From Chromatiales bacterium (GTDB taxonomy: Bacteria > Pseudomonadota > Gammaproteobacteria > Thiohalomonadales > Thiohalomonadaceae): 64,000 nucleotides of DNA. Positions 18,421 through 57,122 of the stretch are shown piece after piece. The number at the start of each line of letters is the position of its first letter. Positions within the stretch are counted from its first letter, which is position 1. The position numbers and the translations under genes are program-made. Location of the stretch: contig QKFD01000070.1 of assembly GCA_003251535.1 (NCBI GenBank), positions 1-64,000 on the forward strand, written 5' to 3'. The notes under the pieces are model-generated. The model was given only the letters and a program-made list of their open reading frames with translations, did no database searches and was not told where the DNA came from.

Positions 18421-18576
18421 GTGCCAAATCAATTTGCTATATTCGTAACCTTTTTTCCACTCCATAGGCGCAGCACCCTGGAGGGGTCATCGAAGCGGTC
18501 ACATTACTCACTCAATCTTGACAGAGATTCACCCGCCAAGGCCCCGCCAAGCACGGCTGTAACATACAATTCGCCT

Positions 18577-20052
18577 GTGCCCACCATCCTCCTCACCACC
18601 TTTAACGCCCGCTATATCCACCCTGCCCTCGGCCTGCGCTCACTCTACGCCAATCTTGGCGAGCTGCGCGCCGAGGCGGCGCTGGTGGAGTTCACCCTTG
18701 CCCTGCCGATCGCCACAGCGGCCGAGCGGCTACTGGCCCAGGCCCCCCGGATCATCGGCATCGGTGTCTATATCTGGAATGTGCGCGAGAGCGCGGCGCT
18801 GGTGGCGGAGCTGCGCCAGCGCGCGCCGGAGGTGAGCCTCGTACTGGGGGGACCGGAGGTGAGCTTCGAGCAGGGGGAGCAACCCATCTGCCAAGCGGCC
18901 GACTATGTGATCGCCGGCCAGGCCGAATACGCCTTTGCCCAGCTCTGCCGCCAGCTGCTGGCCGGTGAGCGGCCCACGGAGCGCTTCATCACTGCGCCGC
19001 CGCCGCCCCTCGCCGACCTCGCCCTCCCCTATGACGACTATAGCGACCAAGACCTGGCAGAGCGCCTCACCTACGTCGAGGCCTCCCGCGGCTGTCCGTT
19101 CAAGTGCGACTTCTGCCTCTCTGCGCTCGACCGCAGCAGCACACCGTTTGATCTAGATCGCTTTCTAACGGCCATGGAGCGGCTACTGGCGCGCGGTGCC
19201 CGCCGCTTCAAGTTTGTTGACCGCACCTTCAACCTCGCCCCCGCCACCGCCCGCCGCATCCTGGAGTTCTTTTTAGATCGACGGGTGCCCGGGCTCTTCC
19301 TCCATTTTGAGGTGGTGCCGGACCGCCTGCCCAGCGCACTACGGGAGCCGCTGGCCCGCTTCCCACCCGGCAGCCTGCAACTGGAGGTGGGGATCCAGAG
19401 CTTCAACCCCCAAGTGCAGCAGCACATCCGGCGCCGACAGGACGACAGCGCCACACAGGCCAATCTGCGCTGGCTACGCCGCCACACCCACGCCCATCTC
19501 CATACCGATCTGATCATCGGCCTGCCAGGGGAGGACCTCGCCTCCTTCGCGGCCGGCTTCGATCGCCTGTGGCAGCTCGATCCGCAGGAGATCCAGGTGG
19601 GCATCCTCAAACGGCTGCGCGGCGCCCCTATCGCCCGCCACTGCCAACCGTTTGAGCTGAGCTTCGACCCGGAGCCCCCCTACCCCATCCGCAGCAGCGC
19701 CCAGATCGACGCCGCCACCATGACCCGCCTCGCCCACTTCGCTCGCTATTGGGAGCTAGTGGCCAACAGTGGACGCTTCCCCCGCACCCTGCGGCGACTC
19801 CTGGGTGACACCCCCTGCGCCCACTTCCTCGCCTTCAGTGATTGGCTATACGCCCACACCGCCCGCACCCACCGCCTCTCCCCCCACCAACTGGCCGAGG
19901 GGCTGTGGGACTACCTCAGCGCCCAAGGCCAGCCAGCCGAGGCAGTGGCGGCCGACCTGCTGGCCGACCATGCCACCATCGCCGATCGCCACCTCTCACC
20001 CCGCCTTAAGGCGTTACGCCGCGAGGGTGGCGCTGCCAGCGCTGGTGTATAG
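18577..20052 (+). CDS. B12-binding-domain radical SAM protein (DUF4080 type)
   Basis: A 491-residue protein starting at the GTG at 18577 (VPTILLTTFNARYIHPALG); upstream residues in the same frame look non-coding. Residues about 1-130 are a cobalamin-binding-like Rossmann domain. A radical SAM domain follows with CPFKCDFC (CX3CX2C) near residue 171, and the C-terminal about 180 residues match the DUF4080 type. Such proteins are widespread but uncharacterised. It is divergent from pstS and 24 bases before a TauE-type gene; neither neighbour reveals the substrate. Confidence 0.85.
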   Translation: MPTILLTTFNARYIHPALGLRSLYANLGELRAEAALVEFTLALPIATAAERLLAQAPRIIGIGVYIWNVRESAALVAELRQRAPEVSLVLGGPEVSFEQGEQPICQAADYVIAGQAEYAFAQLCRQLLAGERPTERFITAPPPPLADLALPYDDYSDQDLAERLTYVEASRGCPFKCDFCLSALDRSSTPFDLDRFLTAMERLLARGARRFKFVDRTFNLAPATARRILEFFLDRRVPGLFLHFEVVPDRLPSALREPLARFPPGSLQLEVGIQSFNPQVQQHIRRRQDDSATQANLRWLRRHTHAHLHTDLIIGLPGEDLASFAAGFDRLWQLDPQEIQVGILKRLRGAPIARHCQPFELSFDPEPPYPIRSSAQIDAATMTRLAHFARYWELVANSGRFPRTLRRLLGDTPCAHFLAFSDWLYAHTARTHRLSPHQLAEGLWDYLSAQGQPAEAVAADLLADHATIADRHLSPRLKALRREGGAASAGV

Positions 20053-41946: not shown

Positions 41947-42503
41947 GTCTGCCGCCGGCTCGGCGCGCGCGCCAGGCCAGGCGACGAAGCCGCCGCCGAC
42001 AGCAGTTGGTGGCGCAGCTGCGGGCCGATCTCGCCCGCGGTGCCCTGCGTCAGGCCAGGGGCTATCTCAATGGCCTCATCGGCAGCTACCCCTATGACTG
42101 CGAACTACGGGCGCTGGCGGGGGAGTGCCTGTTCCGTGCGGGTGAACAGCTGAGTGCCGGTCGCCACTGGTTCCTCTCCGAGCGGGAGGATGCCGATGCC
42201 CAGGCGGCCATCGCCCTCCTCCAGCGCTATGTGGCGGGTGATCCGGTGGAGCTGTTCAAGGAGCTGCGCCTCCACCCGCAGTCGTTCGGGCAGTTTGACT
42301 CCCCCGCCGTGAATGAGCGCCTTGAAGCGTTGCGCCAGCAGCTGCTGGCGCGCCATTTCCCCTTTGCGCCGATCCCCCCGCCAGCGCCGCCCCGGCAGCC
42401 GGCTGGTTGTGGTGTGCTGCTCGCCCTGTTAGGGCTGCTGGGGATAGGGCTGCTGCTCGGGATCTACGCCGGCATCAGGGAGTTGCTGACCTGGTTGGGG
42501 TAA
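41943..42503 (+). CDS. DUF6584-like protein with C-terminal membrane helix
   Basis: A 186-residue protein. The basic N-terminus (RRARQARRRSRRRQQ) leads to a helical segment ARGYLNGLIGSYPYDCELRA then AGRHWFLSE, which resembles DUF6584. A Pro-rich stretch (about 138-150) precedes a membrane helix near 157-178 (LLALLGLLGIGLLLGIYAGI). Function is unknown. Its last 40 bases overlap the 3' end of the convergent radical SAM gene. Confidence 0.65.
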   Translation: MSLPPARRARQARRRSRRRQQLVAQLRADLARGALRQARGYLNGLIGSYPYDCELRALAGECLFRAGEQLSAGRHWFLSEREDADAQAAIALLQRYVAGDPVELFKELRLHPQSFGQFDSPAVNERLEALRQQLLARHFPFAPIPPPAPPRQPAGCGVLLALLGLLGIGLLLGIYAGIRELLTWLG

Positions 42504-44299
42504 GCCGTGATCGCCGCGTGGCGGGTCACTAGCTCAGCGGTACCGCAGACCAGGGTCAGGAAGCTATCGTCGAGGTCTACCAAGAACCCTCGCCGGAGCA
42601 GATTGCCAACATTGGCCGTGATCCCCTCCTGTTTGCGCGGCGTGCGGCACTGCTGGAGCACCGCCAACTCCTCCTCGCCGATCTCGGTCACCGCCTCCAC
42701 GGCGCAGTCGCGGGTATCCCGCACCATCACCCGCCCACCCGCCCGGAAGGCCGCCAGCTCCGCCGGATTGGAGCCCCAGCGGGTATACCACTTGCGCACC
42801 TCGATGTAGAAGCGTGCCAGCAGCTCCGGCATCCGGCGCACCTCGGTCTCGATCTGACCGTTGAAGTTATAGGCCAGCTTCATCAGGTCGATATGCTCCG
42901 GGAACGACTTGAGGTAGCCCTCCATGGGCCTCACCTGCTCGATCCCAAACTGCTCGGGTTCATCAAAGTAGGGGCTAAAGCGCTGGATGTAGATGGGGAT
43001 GATGATGGGGGGATCGAGATGTTGCAGCAGCGGCAGCAGTTCGGCCAGCGCCTCGTAGTCGGCACCGCAATCCTGCGGCAGTGCCACCAGATGGTTCCAT
43101 TTAGCCTCAATCTCCAGCTCACGACAGTTCCGCAGCAGGGCGATGTTTCTGACCGCCGTGGTCCCCTTCTTCATCATCTTCAGATGGCGACTTGATAGCG
43201 ACTCGATACCCGGCCCGAGCGAGTGGATACCGTGGGCCTTCATCTTTTTCAGCTTGTCGAAATCGAGGGTGGGTTTGATCTGATAAAAGATCCGCCCATC
43301 GAACTGGTGGGCGGCGAGGGTATCGAAAAACTCGTCAAAGTAGGTGTTGGGGAAGACCGAGTCACAGGCGTAGTAGTTCTCGTAGTCGGGATAGCGCTGG
43401 CGCAGCTCGCACAACTGCTGCGCCGCCCGCTGCGGGGATTTGGTGCGAAACGCCATGGTGTCGTAGCTGATGCCACAAAACCGGCAACGGTGCTTCACCC
43501 CCCACCAACACCCCCGCGAGGTCTCGAAGTAGAGGAAAGTGGTATCCCGCTCTTCGGGACGGAACTGCGCCAGGAAATCGGTGTAGTCGGGGATATCGAA
43601 GGGATCGAGATCGGTCACCGAAGGGCAGCGGATCAACTTGTCCGTGGGCAGTGGCTGGCCCGCCAAGACCGCCTCACAAAAGGCGGGAAACGCCACATCC
43701 GCCTCACCATCAAACACATAATCGAGACACTCTACCCGCTTCAGCTCCTCCCCCATCTCGCCATAGCAGTTGCTGCCGCCCATGACCACAATCACCTCGG
43801 GAAAGAGCTGCTTCAGCCGCCTGGCCAGGGCCAGCGAGGCGTTGATCTGGGAGTAGAGGCTACTGAAACCCACGATCTTGGGGCGGACCCGCCGCACCTC
43901 GGCGATGAAGCGCTCAAGAAATCCCTCCACACCGTCAACCGCTGCCGTAAAGCCCTGCTCGCTCAGCCCCGCCCGCTTGTTGCCGTAGAGATCGTAGTAG
44001 CGGGCATAGAAGTCGGGGGCCGCTGCCGGCGCCGGCTGCCAGTGGATGGGGGAGCCGTGGGCCGCCTCGGCAAACACCTGCTCCTGATAGAGATCCGCCG
44101 GAGACACCACCGACATCAGCAGCTGATAGAGATCCGTCCCTATCTCCCGCGCATATTGGGCGTTGGCGTAGAGCACCTTGCAGCTGATCCCTTTCTGGGC
44201 CAGGGCGCTCTTTAAGGTCGCCGTCCCCAGGCTGGGGTGGCCCAAGGCGTAGAAGGGGGGAACCACGAGCAGAACCGAGACTGGATCATCATCTTTCAT
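42464..44299 (-). CDS. B12-binding RiPP-maturation radical SAM enzyme
   Basis: A 611-residue protein. Residues about 1-230 are a cobalamin-binding-like domain (LLVVPPFYALGHPSLGTATL, VMGGSNCYGEMGEEL). The radical SAM core has GCWWGVKHRCRFCG (C264, C272, C275), the unusual CX7CX2C spacing of the RiPP-maturation radical SAM protein 1 family, whose members often act as C-methyltransferases on precursor peptides. A C-terminal region of about 110 residues is less defined. It is the last gene of a minus-strand set with a precursor, a SPASM maturase and an S53 peptidase. The target is inferred to be that precursor. Confidence 0.88.
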   Translation of the reverse strand: MKDDDPVSVLLVVPPFYALGHPSLGTATLKSALAQKGISCKVLYANAQYAREIGTDLYQLLMSVVSPADLYQEQVFAEAAHGSPIHWQPAPAAAPDFYARYYDLYGNKRAGLSEQGFTAAVDGVEGFLERFIAEVRRVRPKIVGFSSLYSQINASLALARRLKQLFPEVIVVMGGSNCYGEMGEELKRVECLDYVFDGEADVAFPAFCEAVLAGQPLPTDKLIRCPSVTDLDPFDIPDYTDFLAQFRPEERDTTFLYFETSRGCWWGVKHRCRFCGISYDTMAFRTKSPQRAAQQLCELRQRYPDYENYYACDSVFPNTYFDEFFDTLAAHQFDGRIFYQIKPTLDFDKLKKMKAHGIHSLGPGIESLSSRHLKMMKKGTTAVRNIALLRNCRELEIEAKWNHLVALPQDCGADYEALAELLPLLQHLDPPIIIPIYIQRFSPYFDEPEQFGIEQVRPMEGYLKSFPEHIDLMKLAYNFNGQIETEVRRMPELLARFYIEVRKWYTRWGSNPAELAAFRAGGRVMVRDTRDCAVEAVTEIGEEELAVLQQCRTPRKQEGITANVGNLLRRGFLVDLDDSFLTLVCGTAELVTRHAAITAYPNQVSNSLMPA

Positions 44300-44374
44300 A
44301 ACGAGTTGCCCTAATACACTGCATCCCTTGATACCTCCAGCCGCCGCGACGACTAGAGATCACCTGCGCCACCG

Positions 44375-45994
44375 TCAACCGGCGAAGGTCCGCCGCAATG
44401 CCGCCAACAGCGCCTCCCCATTGGGGCTCCCCCAGCCGGTGCAGGCATCCCAACCTGGCTGCGCATGGTAGTAACCGTTATCCCCCTGGGTAATGTCCCG
44501 GAAGCATTGGCTGCCCCCTTGGGCATACAGGGCACCATTGATGCTGCCCAACCGCCGCCCCAGTGCCTCGCCCAGCTGAATGGCCAAAGCGGCCCAGAGG
44601 GGCGCCACAGCGCTGGTGCCGGCGTCGATGTACCAGGCCCCTAAGATGTAGAGTCGGTAACCGGTGAGGGGGTCGGCATTGCCCGCCACATCCGGCACCC
44701 CGCGGCCGGCAAAACCGGCACTGCGTCCCCCCCATGCCCCCGCTGGCGGGAGGGGGGGGACCTGGGCATCCGCCTGGTAGGCGGGGAGCGCAAAGTGGAT
44801 GCTGACGCCACCGCCGGTGGCCAGCGCCCACTGTGGGTCATTCCAGGTCACCTCGCTGTCGATGGTGGAGCCCTTGCCGACTAAACGAGTACCGCCACAG
44901 GCCAGCGCCTCCGGCACCGAACAGGGAAAATCGACCGATAACTTGCCGTCCGGCAGCCCATCGGAGGCACCATCGTCACCGGCGGCGACGCACACCGTCA
45001 CCCCCAGTAGGGCGCCGATATAGATGACCTGGCGCATCTGCTCCGCGGCCCCTTGGCTCCAGGCCACTTCGCTCTCCCCCCAACTCACCGACAGCACTTG
45101 GGGGGCGTTGGTGGTATCGAAGATGGCCTGTTCGATCACCTCGATAAACCCCTGTTGTGAGTTCTCGGTGGCAAAGTAGACGACGATCTTCGCCTTGGGC
45201 ACGACGGCGCCGGCCACCTCGATATCCATCACCACCTCGCCGTAGCCATGGCTCGGTTTGCTCTGGGTCCCCGGCTGGTTGGGACCGACGGAGATGATCT
45301 CCGGTTTGGGGATCTCCAGGGCGCTAAAGTAGGCATCGAGATCCGACTCGAAGTAACCCGCCCCCAGTTCAATGATCCCCAGGCACTGGTCGCTGCCGGC
45401 AAACGACTGCGGAAAATTGTAGAGCTGCGCTACTTGGGGTGAGGTGTATTGCGCGATGGAGCCCGGTTGGGGAGAGGCCGCCTTGGCGGTTGCCTGCGGC
45501 GCGGCGCCCCGGCGGGCGATGGGGTGGTTATCCAGCCCCACCACGGCGGTGACAATCCCCTCCAGCGCCGCCGGTAAGTAGACCGCCCCCTCATGGCTCC
45601 GAAACGACTGCTCTCCCTTGGTAAAGAGGGCCAGTTCAACCCCAAAGGCGCTGGCCAGCGCCTCGGCTGAGGCACGCAGCTTCACCACGCAACGCACCCG
45701 ATCCACCGCCACCACCGTGAGGCCATGGGCCTGGGCGAAGGCGGTCACCTGCGCGATATCCTGCTCATCGGCGCTGTGTCTCTCCAACAGCTCCGCGTGA
45801 CTTAGGGAGGGGGTGGTGACTCCCGGGGCGCGCTGCTTGGCCTCATATCGGCTCGCCAGCTCTGCCCAACCGGGGCGTCGCAGGTAGAGTGATAGGTCAA
45901 TACCCCCCTCCGGTAGCGCCTTCCCTAGCTTCACAACATCGGTGCCATGAAAGGGTTGGCTACCCGCCATGGCATGGCCTGTGGACGTAGTCAT
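44375..45994 (-). CDS. S53 (sedolisin/kumamolisin-like) serine-carboxyl peptidase
   Basis: A 539-residue peptidase. Residues about 15-165 form the activation pro-domain (DVVKLGKALPEGGIDLSLYL); the catalytic domain follows from about 185. The triad is visible as Glu and Asp in GYGEVVMDIEVAG and Ser in AGTSAVAPLWAAL; the oxyanion Asp is in AAGDDGASDG. No signal peptide is seen, unlike typical secreted family members. The ATG at 45994 has a GAGGGAGGAG site. Its place between two radical SAM genes suggests leader removal in RiPP maturation; this is inferred. Confidence 0.88.
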   Translation of the reverse strand: MTTSTGHAMAGSQPFHGTDVVKLGKALPEGGIDLSLYLRRPGWAELASRYEAKQRAPGVTTPSLSHAELLERHSADEQDIAQVTAFAQAHGLTVVAVDRVRCVVKLRASAEALASAFGVELALFTKGEQSFRSHEGAVYLPAALEGIVTAVVGLDNHPIARRGAAPQATAKAASPQPGSIAQYTSPQVAQLYNFPQSFAGSDQCLGIIELGAGYFESDLDAYFSALEIPKPEIISVGPNQPGTQSKPSHGYGEVVMDIEVAGAVVPKAKIVVYFATENSQQGFIEVIEQAIFDTTNAPQVLSVSWGESEVAWSQGAAEQMRQVIYIGALLGVTVCVAAGDDGASDGLPDGKLSVDFPCSVPEALACGGTRLVGKGSTIDSEVTWNDPQWALATGGGVSIHFALPAYQADAQVPPLPPAGAWGGRSAGFAGRGVPDVAGNADPLTGYRLYILGAWYIDAGTSAVAPLWAALAIQLGEALGRRLGSINGALYAQGGSQCFRDITQGDNGYYHAQPGWDACTGWGSPNGEALLAALRRTFAG

Positions 45995-46079
45995 CTATCG
46001 GCTCCTCCCTCATAGACAGTGGACGACAACAACCCACCCACTACAGCGCCATCCGTCGTAGCGGCGCCCGCAGAGGGGA

Positions 46080-47465
46080 TCAGTGTTCTACCGTTGAGGG
46101 GTCAGCGGAGAGACGCTGCTCCAGGTAGATGGGAAACAGCTCGCGCCAGTTGTGTTTGTAACTGGGGCAGCGGGGCGCCTGATCCGGTAGCAGTAGATTG
46201 CTATGGGGACAGTGGGCATAGCAGATGGGCAGAAAGACACAGGCCCGACAGGAGGGGTTGTCGTCGGGTCGTCGGGACCGCCACTGGAGCAGACTCTCGT
46301 CGCTATCGAGGTGGGCAAAATCGTAGATGGAGCTGGCGGTTTCGGCCTCGACCCCCAGCTCGTGATCACACTTTTTCAAGTGGCCCTGATAGTCAACCAC
46401 AAAGCCATTATCGATGGCGGCATAACACCCCAAGTAGCCCGTCGTAAAAAACTGCGGGGTAAAGGGGCTGAAGCCCTGCGCCAAGAGCAGCTCCACCAGG
46501 CGCCGCTCCTCCACGGCAAACTGCTCTACCGTGAGATGGACCCCACTCTGCGGCAGATAGGCGGCGGCCTCATCGGCGGGATCGAAGTGAAAAACGGGAT
46601 AGAAATAGATGCCCGCTACCCGAGAGGCCAGGCCTGCGGCCGCCAACTGCTCCACCAGCAGCGGCATACTGGCGAGGTTGATGCGACTGACGTTGATCCG
46701 GATCAGGATACGGAGGTGCTCACTCGCGGCGCGAATGTTCTCGATGATCCGATCAAAAGAGGGCTCGCTCGGGACCGCCCCGAGACTGGAGCGACGGACT
46801 CGATCATGCAGGGGGCGACTGCCATCAAAAGTCACCTGCACGGTGCCGATCCCGTGTTGGGCGAGTTCAGCCGCGGTGGGGGCGTCGAGCAGATATCCGT
46901 TGGAGACCATGCGAAAGGCGTAGGTCACATTCAACTGGCCGCAGAGCGCCTGCAACCGCCGAGATACCTCAACCACGAATGGCTTGGAGAGCAGCGGCTC
47001 CCCGCCAAACCAGGTGATACCCAGCCCGCCGTCGGCCGTGAGGCGCGAGGCGATAAAGCTCAGCAGGGCATCGGCATCCGGCAGCCCGAGGGCCGTGGTC
47101 GGCTTGCCGCCTTCATAGCAGTAGTAGCAACTCATGTTGCACTGCAAACTGGGGGCGATGACCAGCGACAACGTGGCGTCCGCACCCACCGTCTGGTCGT
47201 AGTGCTGCATCGCCAGCGCCACCTCATCCTGCTCTGCGGGGACGGCAAAGCCGTGCTCGGTGAGGAACTCCGTCACCGCTGACCAGGCCGGTGTCTCCGG
47301 CGCCGTTCGGGGCAGCTGCGGCACCAGCTGCTTGAGCAGCAGCAAGCGCTCCTCGCTGAGCAGCACGGAGCGACCCGTGAGGGTGTTATACCAAAAGACA
47401 CCCGCCGCGGCGGGCACCTCCAAATTATATTGCGACAGTTTAAGATCCCTCATCACCCTCTCCAT
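46080..47465 (-). CDS. Radical SAM/SPASM peptide maturase
   Basis: A 461-residue enzyme. The N-terminal about 80 residues (LEVPAAAGVFWYNTLTGRSV) resemble the precursor-binding region of peptide maturases. The radical SAM motif CNMSCYYC holds C109, C113 and C116. The C-terminal SPASM domain is complete: CX13GX4C (CYAAIDNG to KKC), then CX2CX5CX3C (CRACVFLPICYAHC) and a final Cys in RCPSYK, giving two auxiliary Fe-S clusters. Members form thioether or carbon-carbon links in RiPPs. The start has an AGGAGGGG site. It follows the precursor gene by 334 bases. Confidence 0.93.
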   Translation of the reverse strand: MERVMRDLKLSQYNLEVPAAAGVFWYNTLTGRSVLLSEERLLLLKQLVPQLPRTAPETPAWSAVTEFLTEHGFAVPAEQDEVALAMQHYDQTVGADATLSLVIAPSLQCNMSCYYCYEGGKPTTALGLPDADALLSFIASRLTADGGLGITWFGGEPLLSKPFVVEVSRRLQALCGQLNVTYAFRMVSNGYLLDAPTAAELAQHGIGTVQVTFDGSRPLHDRVRRSSLGAVPSEPSFDRIIENIRAASEHLRILIRINVSRINLASMPLLVEQLAAAGLASRVAGIYFYPVFHFDPADEAAAYLPQSGVHLTVEQFAVEERRLVELLLAQGFSPFTPQFFTTGYLGCYAAIDNGFVVDYQGHLKKCDHELGVEAETASSIYDFAHLDSDESLLQWRSRRPDDNPSCRACVFLPICYAHCPHSNLLLPDQAPRCPSYKHNWRELFPIYLEQRLSADPSTVEH

Positions 47466-47799
47466 CGACCCCTCCTGCCGCTGCTATTCGCCTTTGGCAC
47501 CCCACCTGGCGAGGGCACTCAAACGGGTCAACAAATGCGTCCCTACCGCTCTGTCAACGGCGCCATGAGGTCCATGCACGAGGCGCCCATTTACCCTGGG
47601 GCAGGGACCAGCCACGCCCCCGCACACCCGTTCAGCGGTCCCTCAAAGTGAGCGCAACACGCCCTGAACAGACGCCCCAAAGAGCGGTTCACTCTTGGTT
47701 GGCCAAGCCGGAAGTGCTGGCGTCCCCAAGAGACAGGACGCCAGCGCGCTGGTTATAACTCGCAGGAGTTAATCCAAGCGATCAGCCCACCACGGATCA
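47466..47799. other. Gap between RiPP precursor and maturase genes
   Basis: No second precursor gene with a good ribosome site was found in this gap. It carries the stem-loop at 47716-47745. The rest shows no recognised feature. Confidence 0.45.
47716..47745 (-). terminator. Stem-loop downstream of the RiPP precursor gene
   Basis: Perfect 10-bp arms GCTGGCGTCC and GGACGCCAGC with a 10-base loop, 54 bases after the precursor stop. No U-tract follows. Such hairpins often protect the precursor mRNA or limit read-through so that precursor exceeds enzyme. Confidence 0.5.
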
Positions 47800-47973
47800 T
47801 CAATCCGCGATACAGACAGCGCAACGGGGCTCAACAGACTTGCCCGCATCGGCCGATGAGAGATACCGCGCCAGATCAGCCAACAGCTGTTCCGGCGTGG
47901 CATTGGAGCCCACCCGGGCCCCCTCAGGCGCCGTAATTTTCAGAGTTTTGTCATCTACTTTTTCAACTTTCAT
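47800..47973 (-). CDS. Candidate RiPP precursor peptide, 57 residues
   Basis: A small gene starting at the ATG at 47973 with GAGGAAAGG seven bases before it, ending at TGA 47800-47802. The product begins MKVEKVDDKTLKITAPEGAR, continues with a predicted amphipathic helix TPEQLLADLARYLSSADAGK, and ends SVEPRCAVCIAD. The polar leader, the helix, and the short Cys-containing C-terminus (CAVC, CX2C) fit a ribosomally made, post-translationally modified peptide. The next three genes on the same strand encode two radical SAM enzymes and a peptidase. The family is not one I recognise. The identity is inferred from architecture and context. Confidence 0.75.
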   Translation of the reverse strand: MKVEKVDDKTLKITAPEGARVGSNATPEQLLADLARYLSSADAGKSVEPRCAVCIAD

Positions 47974-48060
47974 CTGCCTTTCCTCGCAGCTGCAATTTAA
48001 AGAGTCCTATTCACATACCCGACAGCGCAATCCATGACTCACACGCCACCAGGCACGCAA

Positions 48061-48089
48061 AATGTGGGCGACGCGGCCCCCATTGTCAA
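48061..48089 (-). promoter_or_regulatory. Candidate promoter of the RiPP cluster
   Basis: On the minus strand TTGACA (48089-48084), a 17-base spacer, then CACATT (48066-48061). The -35 is perfect and the -10 weak. It would give a leader of about 80 bases before the precursor gene. Confidence 0.4.
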
Positions 48090-55291: not shown

Positions 55292-56305
55292 TCACTTCCG
55301 CTTTGAGGACTTTGCCGGCGATTTAGTCGGTTTGGCAGGGGCGGGGGCGGCCGCTCCCTCCTCCAACGGTTCATCGGAGTCCCCCCACAATAGGCGCCGG
55401 AAGCTCTGCGAGGAGACCTGCACCTTAATGGAGTCGATGAAGCGGTTGGTGCGGATCATGCCGCGCTGTTGCAGCTCGTCGATGATGTGGTTGATGAGCC
55501 GTAACGGCTGCTTGAGGGTTGAGGCAAGCAGGTTGTTGTCGTAGATACCGTCGTTCAGCACCGTGCCAGCAAACTGCTTCAGGATCCCTCGGTAGTTCTC
55601 CAAATAGGTGTTGCAGAAGGCCTCAAAGCCGTTGTGCAGCACCACGAAGTTGTAACCACCGGTGAGGAAGCGGTTGACCTTGATGAACTGCGCCTGCTCC
55701 ACCTCGGCCAGATTGCGCGCCATCTCCTCCTCCGAGAGCCAGCCCCAGGTCTCCACCGGAAAGGCACGATCGGGGTTGACCGTATCGGTCTCCCGTTCCA
55801 GCAGATATTCGCACGCCTGCTTGATGATCATCGACTGCATTCGGTTGAGGCCTTCGATGATGGGGAGCGACTCGTCGAATCCCGGCCCACCAGTTGGGTA
55901 CATCGACTTGTAGGCGATATCCCCCACCAAGGCCGCCGAGCTGTCAAAGCTATGGCGATCGGCCACTGCCTCCACCACCGTGGCACTGCCCAGCGCCTTG
56001 GAGGGAATGCAGTCATCCAGCAGCAGGGTGATGATGGGGACATGGTCCTGGATCCGGCGCACATTGACCTCATCCAGCTCGGCCTTGAGCCACTGCTGGG
56101 GGAGGCTTGCCCGGGAAACAACCACCACAAATGCCGCACAGCGGCGCAGACCTTCGCCAAAGATCTTGTCAACCAGGCTCTCATCGGGTCCTAGGCCCCA
56201 ATAGTCAGCATCGGTATCAAAACCGCGACTGGCCAGGCGATCGGCAAAGGCATGGATAAACTGGTCATCCATCTTGTCATGTATTAGGAATATGGTGGCG
56301 CGCAT
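55292..56305 (-). CDS. TIR-domain protein with uncharacterised C-terminal region
   Basis: A 337-residue protein from the ATG at 56305; the open frame to 56452 adds Arg-rich residues without support. Residues about 2-130 form a TIR-like fold (TIFLIHDKMDDQFIHAFADR), including SRASLPQQWLKAELDE, where TIR NADases usually carry the catalytic Glu in a W..E segment. Residues about 145-300 are a helical region I do not recognise. The tail is Pro/Lys/Ala-rich. Bacterial TIR proteins often act in phage defence, but no sensor gene or other defence gene is adjacent, so this is open. Confidence 0.75.
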   Translation of the reverse strand: MRATIFLIHDKMDDQFIHAFADRLASRGFDTDADYWGLGPDESLVDKIFGEGLRRCAAFVVVVSRASLPQQWLKAELDEVNVRRIQDHVPIITLLLDDCIPSKALGSATVVEAVADRHSFDSSAALVGDIAYKSMYPTGGPGFDESLPIIEGLNRMQSMIIKQACEYLLERETDTVNPDRAFPVETWGWLSEEEMARNLAEVEQAQFIKVNRFLTGGYNFVVLHNGFEAFCNTYLENYRGILKQFAGTVLNDGIYDNNLLASTLKQPLRLINHIIDELQQRGMIRTNRFIDSIKVQVSSQSFRRLLWGDSDEPLEEGAAAPAPAKPTKSPAKSSKRK

Positions 56306-57122
56306 CGAATCTCTCCGACCCCCGGCCCTCCGCCGGGACTGGGGGGCGATTATACGTTCCTTTAACCGCCGATCACGCCTGTCATCTCTGCCATCGGACG
56401 AATGGACCGAATAGTTGACCGAGGTGTCATCGGCATCCGATAAATTACCCAAATCTGTGACTTGCAGCAGGTTTCTAACCGAATCTCTACCCCCATGTAG
56501 TGCTGTAAAAAGAGACAGGGAGGCCTGTTAGAAGACCCCCCCAGTCTGGGGGCAGTGCCGCCTCGACCCTATGGGGTAGGCGGGCACTCCACAGCAGCCA
56601 ATCCGTAGAGCGGGGTGGGGGCTAGATTACGTTGCCCGGCTTAAATTAGGTTAAGAAACCCAGCGATAAGGGGCGCTATTCCTCCAGATCGCCACCGGGT
56701 TCACACTTCGATGGTTGCCCTGCGCGCAGTTCCCAACCAAGCGCTGCCCGGTCCCCGCCTTTAGCGCCGTGCTCTCCCCTCTCCTCTCCCGCCCCCTTCA
56801 GGAGCAGAGCGAGAGGATCCTAAGGAGACATCAACGTGCCGGTTTTGTTGCATGGGATCCCCTACCCAGCGCACTCAGCACGCTGAACCCCACGGCCGAA
56901 GGGCGTTCCAGAGTGGCGCTGACACTGGAAAAAACAGCGTGCAACAGCCGCACCCAAGCGCGCCAAACCGACGTGACGGCGGCGATTGTGGCTTGACCAG
57001 GCGCCCATTTCAGTGGAGAGTTGCCGGTGCTCCAGGGTGGGGCGCGGGACCCACCTGGGGCGGAGTAGTTGTTTTACGGTTGTTAACCACCGAAACAATA
57101 AAGCCAAAAGGGGAGAAGATGT
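56306..57122. other. Long intergenic region with RNA-like stems
   Basis: No gene accepted. Two strong stems occur: CCCCCA/TGGGGG at about 56536-56552, and a bulged stem of about 13 pairs at 56555-56587 (GTGCC, GCCT and ACCC pairing with GGGGT, AGGC and GGCAC). These could belong to a small RNA or a leader. The remainder up to the gene at 57123 shows only shadow frames. Confidence 0.45.

Follow-up and report, generated by a model that had tools for sequence, protein, structure and literature searches.

The window analysed here is a stretch of 64,000 nucleotides from a Chromatiales bacterium (assembly GCA_003251535.1, contig QKFD01000070.1), and it carries a putative cassette for a ribosomally synthesized and post-translationally modified peptide (RiPP). 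Based on an open reading frame (ORF) reading, the cassette comprises four consecutive minus-strand genes, all open, for a small precursor, a radical S-adenosylmethionine (SAM) enzyme of the SPASM type, an S53 peptidase and a B12-binding radical SAM enzyme (Table 1). An earlier note, made from the sequence alone, had described a RiPP cluster of these genes; their order and coordinates were confirmed, as were the motifs that it named, i.e., CX3CX2C (C109/C113/C116) with a full SPASM set in the first radical SAM enzyme, CX7CX2C (C264/C272/C275) in the second, and the sedolisin residues in the peptidase. The three enzyme genes are spaced by 85 and 75 bases, and 334 bases lie between the precursor and the SPASM gene.

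Table 1. Features of the four-gene cassette in the window
Feature	Coordinates	Strand	Remarks
Precursor	47800..47973	-	57 aa; orthologue in the same position in Azospirillum picis; no family match
SPASM radical SAM peptide maturase	46080..47465	-	461 aa; best NCBIfam TIGR04463 (below cut-off); conserved cluster Cys
S53 peptidase, kumamolisin-type sedolisin with pro-domain	44375..45994	-	539 aa; Pro-kuma_activ; predicted leader peptidase
B12-binding radical SAM enzyme, TIGR03975	42464..44299	-	611 aa; above family cut-off
RNA hairpin in the gap between precursor and SPASM gene	47716..47745	-	Stem GCTGGCGTCC-loop-GGGGACGCCAGC; without T run

The SPASM alignment was scanned against the GTDB contig collection, and among the matches listed there was one true orthologue, in Azospirillum picis (NZ_JAGINO010000038.1, L041), with 57% identity over residues 2-454, the next listed match being at 32%. 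The earlier note would have given up its proposal had the four genes co-occurred in no other genome; on the Azospirillum contig they are found together, in the order and orientation of the window, with identities of 64% for the precursor (E 1.9e-19), 56.8% for the SPASM enzyme, 58.1% for the S53 peptidase and 62.9% for the B12 enzyme. The hosts belong to different taxonomic orders, neither appearing in the order set of the other, and the cassette neighbours differ between them. Within the family of the window host, the S53 query gave no match in the other 19 of 20 genomes, and no further full cassette was found in a 369-genome sample of its class (SPASM query) or a 398-genome sample of its phylum (SPASM and B12 queries). 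A close SPASM match was present in 1 of 82 genomes of the Azospirillum family, and no other full cassette was found in 385 genomes of the corresponding class (B12 query), in plasmids (protein search) or in viral contigs. This patchy occurrence is consistent with the cassette having spread by horizontal transfer.

The window precursor, MKVEKVDDKTLKITAPEGARVGSNATPEQLLADLARYLSSADAGKSVEPRCAVCIAD, and that of A. picis, MKLEKLDAQTLKITAPQGTTIGDALTPEQLLADLVKYVGSPTAKAIQPRCAVCIAD (L041, 9652-9822), share three identical blocks, TLKITAP, TPEQLLADL and PRCAVCIAD, the latter being their last nine residues. In the window precursor, residues 1 to about 50 correspond to the leader, which alone is 57% identical between the two, and residues 51-57 to the predicted core CAVCIAD, where both Cys of each precursor fall. 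Of the last nine codons, three are identical and six differ synonymously, with no non-synonymous change; since all six differences are synonymous, the identical core reflects selection and not a recent copy. Although the precursor has no family match, an orthologue with an identical core that differs only at synonymous positions shows it to be a real gene with its core under selection. As judged from the sequences, a small precursor gene with a conserved core is thus linked to dedicated maturases in two genomes, which bears out the RiPP-type assignment. Weak precursor-like matches elsewhere in the two genomes look like chance; the best of them (L127) lies on another contig, among sugar-metabolism-like genes.

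The SPASM enzyme has a Pfam Radical_SAM match, and its auxiliary-cluster Cys (C347, C366, C406, C409, C415 and C419) are invariant across 29 homologues, with C433 invariant in five. Its best NCBIfam model is TIGR04463 (227.7 bits, cut-off 525), followed by geopeptide, Clo7bot, FlmE/OhkG, CefB (125.9 bits, cut-off 600) and PapB (96.9 bits, cut-off 340), all far under their cut-offs. By these scores, filing the enzyme under TIGR04463, CefB or PapB is ruled out. The families nearest to it (TIGR04463, geopeptide, Clo7bot, CefB and PapB) are peptide maturases, several of them named for Cys-rich substrates. The AlphaFold2 model (predicted local distance difference test, pLDDT, 88) has TigE (8vpo) as its nearest solved fold, followed by CteB (5wgg/5why), SuiB and anSME, with template modelling (TM) scores of about 0.65-0.69 for TigE and CteB. 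CteB and SuiB are RiPP crosslinking enzymes, and TigE is a carbon-carbon-forming one; these fold matches do not decide between thioether and carbon-carbon chemistry. Thioether formation is preferred, with modest confidence, given the families nearest in sequence and the invariance of both Cys. The N-terminus of the model has strands at 8-36 followed by helices at 38-50, 59-70 and 81-93, an order like that of a RiPP recognition element (RRE), and this strand-helix domain could be an RRE.

The B12 enzyme scores 505 bits against TIGR03975 (RiPP maturation radical SAM C-methyltransferase; cut-off 281.85) and contains the Pfam domains B12-binding and Radical_SAM. C-methylation would follow from the family name and is a guess to that extent; for another B12 radical SAM enzyme, ApyD, the methylated position is the beta-carbon of a Tyr in the core (PMC10635010). 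The model of the enzyme (pLDDT 59) is too poor to judge its C-terminal region. The window contains a second B12-binding radical SAM gene (18421-20052, plus strand), with DUF4080 at the C-terminus of its product, which is apparently unrelated to the cassette.

The S53 enzyme carries the pro-domain (Pro-kuma_activ, PF09286, 57.2 bits with a gathering threshold of 23.5) and the intact catalytic Glu, Asp, Asp and Ser (E253, D257, D340 and S461), and its match to pro-kumamolisin 1t1e (E 6.5e-108) covers the full length. Its D345 and D355, equivalent to the S1 acids D169 and D179 of kumamolisin, are kept in both the window and Azospirillum. Kumamolisin-As is specific for Pro at P2 and favours a positively charged P1, and its redesign for a different specificity involved mutating D169 and D179 along with other positions (PMC5935664). 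Each precursor has exactly one Pro-basic pair, the PR directly before CAVCIAD. Taken with the preference of kumamolisin-As and the kept D345/D355, this single pair points to a cut between PR and CAVCIAD, so the S53 enzyme probably cleaves after Arg50; the role of trimming enzyme that the earlier note had given it is likely, as the site fits kumamolisin-As specificity.

In a tree of 12 S53 sequences, the two cassette proteins are sisters (100/99), and the S53 of a Thalassospira marina RiPP cluster comes next (95/94). That cluster, on plasmid pCSC3H3 (L139, NZ_CP024200.1, 2627-15388), is unusual in its mixed composition: consecutive genes encode LanM, a precursor annotated as thiocillin-family, a thiazole/oxazole-modified microcin (TOMM) leader-binding protein, a P450, the S53 related to that of the cassette, and a U32 peptidase. 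The plasmid relatives examined lie mostly outside RiPP clusters, for instance in Deinococcus, Caballeronia and Polymorphobacter, at 45% identity or less. In Streptomyces, a lantibiotic dehydratase gene lies some 4 kb from the S53 relative. In Paraburkholderia caribensis (L142, NZ_CP013105.1, 5965-12275), an S53 gene directly precedes those for a cysteine tryptophylquinone (CTQ)-dependent LodA/GoxA oxidase and its flavoprotein, and this S53 may act in quinoprotein maturation.

Several known systems share parts of the cassette. On a Methylomagnum plasmid (L010), in genome G442 (L017) and in Geitlerinema (L051), SPASM and TIGR03975 enzymes are paired and accompanied by a large precursor of Cys repeats, while S53 is absent; the first of these loci is annotated as CefA, TIGR04463 and C-methyltransferase. 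The pairing thus has precedents in existing annotation; the cassette itself is different. As in the cassette, the SPASM maturase of such CefA-type clusters adjoins a TIGR03975-type enzyme and the precursor contains Cys; however, their precursors are long Cys-repeat proteins with a conserved IIPI/VIPV tail, and the enzymes are about 29-30% (SPASM) and 31-34% (TIGR03975) identical to those of the cassette. The precursors at the three loci have 344-685 aa, and their common tail ends in I; at two of the loci (L010 and L051), the B12 gene is also followed by one for a small membrane-like protein. The pattern of a Cys at every fifth position, which defines CefA, is absent from the window precursor, which has just two Cys, three apart. 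PapB-type ranthipeptides likewise combine a SPASM enzyme with Cys and Asp in the core, whereas the cassette has no CX3D/E motif and adds a B12 enzyme and an S53 peptidase. TigE and CteB have the same overall SPASM radical SAM fold but only 15-16% sequence identity, and other precursors; we know of no B12 partner or S53 for either. Kumamolisin and kumamolisin-As resemble the cassette S53 in pro-domain, catalytic Glu-Asp-Asp-Ser and S1 acids, but are known as acid-active endopeptidases, and to our knowledge none acts as a RiPP leader peptidase. In the aminopyruvatide cluster, the B12 radical SAM enzyme ApyD C-methylates the beta-carbon of a residue within a short core that lies at the C-terminus and ends in Asp (PMC10635010), yet it belongs to another family (the cassette B12 enzyme scores 57 bits against a cut-off of 750), and its partners are a P450, an MNIO and a methyltransferase, with no SPASM enzyme. 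Other arrays of SPASM-like genes were seen in Methanosaeta sp. PtaU1.Bin112 (L108, 4660-14009), where seven stand in tandem on one strand before a B12-type radical SAM gene on the other, and in two Zixiibacteriota genomes (L058 and L063), which have in common two SPASM-like genes in succession and then a B12-type radical SAM gene.

With somewhat more confidence than doubt, we read the locus as a self-contained RiPP cassette in which both radical SAM enzymes modify the C-terminal core and the S53 peptidase frees the heptapeptide CAVCIAD. The 57-aa precursor would be recognized through the leader blocks TLKITAP and TPEQLLADL. The SPASM enzyme would join Cys51, Cys54 or both through one or two thioethers to another residue, e.g., Asp57 or one near it. 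Cys-Xn-Asp spacings of n = 0-6 are tolerated by PapB (PMC9413430), and on that basis a link to D57 is conceivable in principle for C51 (n = 5) as well as for C54 (n = 2). The TIGR03975 enzyme would C-methylate an unactivated carbon, Val53 and Ile55 being obvious candidates, and the S53 enzyme would then cut behind Pro49-Arg50 and give the modified heptapeptide. We infer the action of both enzymes on CAVCIAD, along with where the peptide is cut and what the product does; the two chemistries, which the earlier note had put down as a crosslink and a C-methyl or similar change, are likewise deduced at the level of enzyme families.

A number of observations weigh against this reading. Among the matches listed, only two cassettes are known. 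The SPASM enzyme fits no family of known chemistry, being under every named-family cut-off checked, and a Cys thioether is therefore a guess; TigE, the solved fold that it matches best, is a carbon-carbon-forming enzyme; and the core offers C-x2-D and C-x5-D only, not the native CX3D spacing of PapB. On the peptidase side, D345 and D355 are also retained in stand-alone S53 enzymes, so by themselves they are no pointer to the cassette substrate, no signal peptide is apparent in the cassette S53 enzyme, and the link to Thalassospira in the S53 tree depends on a long branch. The acid optimum of kumamolisin-As, pH 2-4 (PMC5935664), sits badly with a cytoplasmic leader peptidase.

Three other readings were considered in light of this evidence. 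The heptapeptide might be released in the same way, with the SPASM enzyme doing carbon-carbon or stereochemical work (cyclopropylglycine from Val53/Ile55, or epimerisation) and the two Cys staying unmodified to form a CxxC site for metal or redox work; an invariant C-A-V-C would be suited to metal binding. TigE ranks ahead of CteB among the solved folds, and TvgB, of the same radical SAM subfamily, converts Val to cyclopropylglycine (PMC9062424), the core having both V and I; however, the sequence-nearest NCBIfam families are maturases tied to Cys-containing substrates, the core has no repeated TVGG-type motif as in the known cyclopropylglycine substrate, and the order of fold matches within the SPASM enzymes counts for little at a TM of about 0.65. 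We regard this version as rather unlikely. It is less likely still that the cassette is a reduced relative of CefA ("Cys-every-fifth"), with the same chemistry on one unit rather than many repeats: the adjacent SPASM and TIGR03975 pair is common to both and the CefA repeats CGAD/CGAA recall the CIAD end of the core, but this C-x-A-D resemblance is short, the 57-aa precursor is otherwise unlike those of 344-685 aa, with neither repeats nor an IIPIxPGI-type tail, and the score on CefB is 126 bits against a 600-bit cut-off. We find it improbable that the S53 is an unrelated neighbour or a secreted enzyme, with trimming left to host proteases. Its closest plasmid relatives being mostly outside RiPP clusters, the acid activity of kumamolisin-As and the other SPASM and TIGR03975 clusters without S53 would fit such a bystander; on the other side, the S53 gene sits between the two radical SAM genes in both cassettes with 58% identity, the Thalassospira S53 lies directly within another RiPP cluster, and the sole Pro-Arg site matches the expected specificity.

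The hairpin between the precursor and SPASM genes is strong (100-nt fold, z = -3.1), and Azospirillum has one at the equivalent place, where the fold does not reach significance (z = -1.35). Possibly, it lifts the precursor level above that of the enzymes. The precursor starts with ATG, with GAGGAAAGG just ahead, and no sigma-70 consensus promoter was found at the cluster. Ferredoxin-reductase-like and DUF6584 genes neighbour the cassette in the window; in Azospirillum, by the ORF reading, it is flanked at one end by a response regulator and a sensor, and at the opposite end by a GntR-type regulator and lactate-permease-like genes. The four-gene cassette contains no exporter, immunity protein or regulator. 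Elsewhere in the 64-kb window, there is a gene for a TIR-domain protein (55292-56452, minus strand), and no tRNA was found.

The earlier note knew of no described class with this set of genes. This holds insofar as the literature searched contains no matching class, neither the complete set with this precursor nor a joint description of radical SAM, RiPP and S53 peptidase; it does not extend to the parts, given the CefA-type clusters and the S53 of the Thalassospira marina RiPP cluster. Because the SPASM and TIGR03975 pairing recurs elsewhere, what is new is the complete four-gene set with its short invariant core. A core that stays unchanged between distant hosts suggests a defined small molecule, and the patchy occurrence looks like specialised metabolism. 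Tentatively, and with doubt outweighing confidence, we propose a new RiPP class in which an invariant heptapeptide is modified by SPASM and cobalamin enzymes and released intracellularly by a kumamolisin at Pro-Arg, its product being a small cofactor, a metallophore or a signal and not a variable antibiotic. Should the S53 enzyme act as predicted, the cassette would supply a first described example of a kumamolisin-type leader peptidase within the literature searched. The cassette is a minimal and easily testable pathway, with a 57-residue substrate, two radical enzymes and a peptidase with a single predicted cut site, from which exact product masses can be predicted, and would offer a compact system for how SPASM and cobalamin radical SAM enzymes share one short core.
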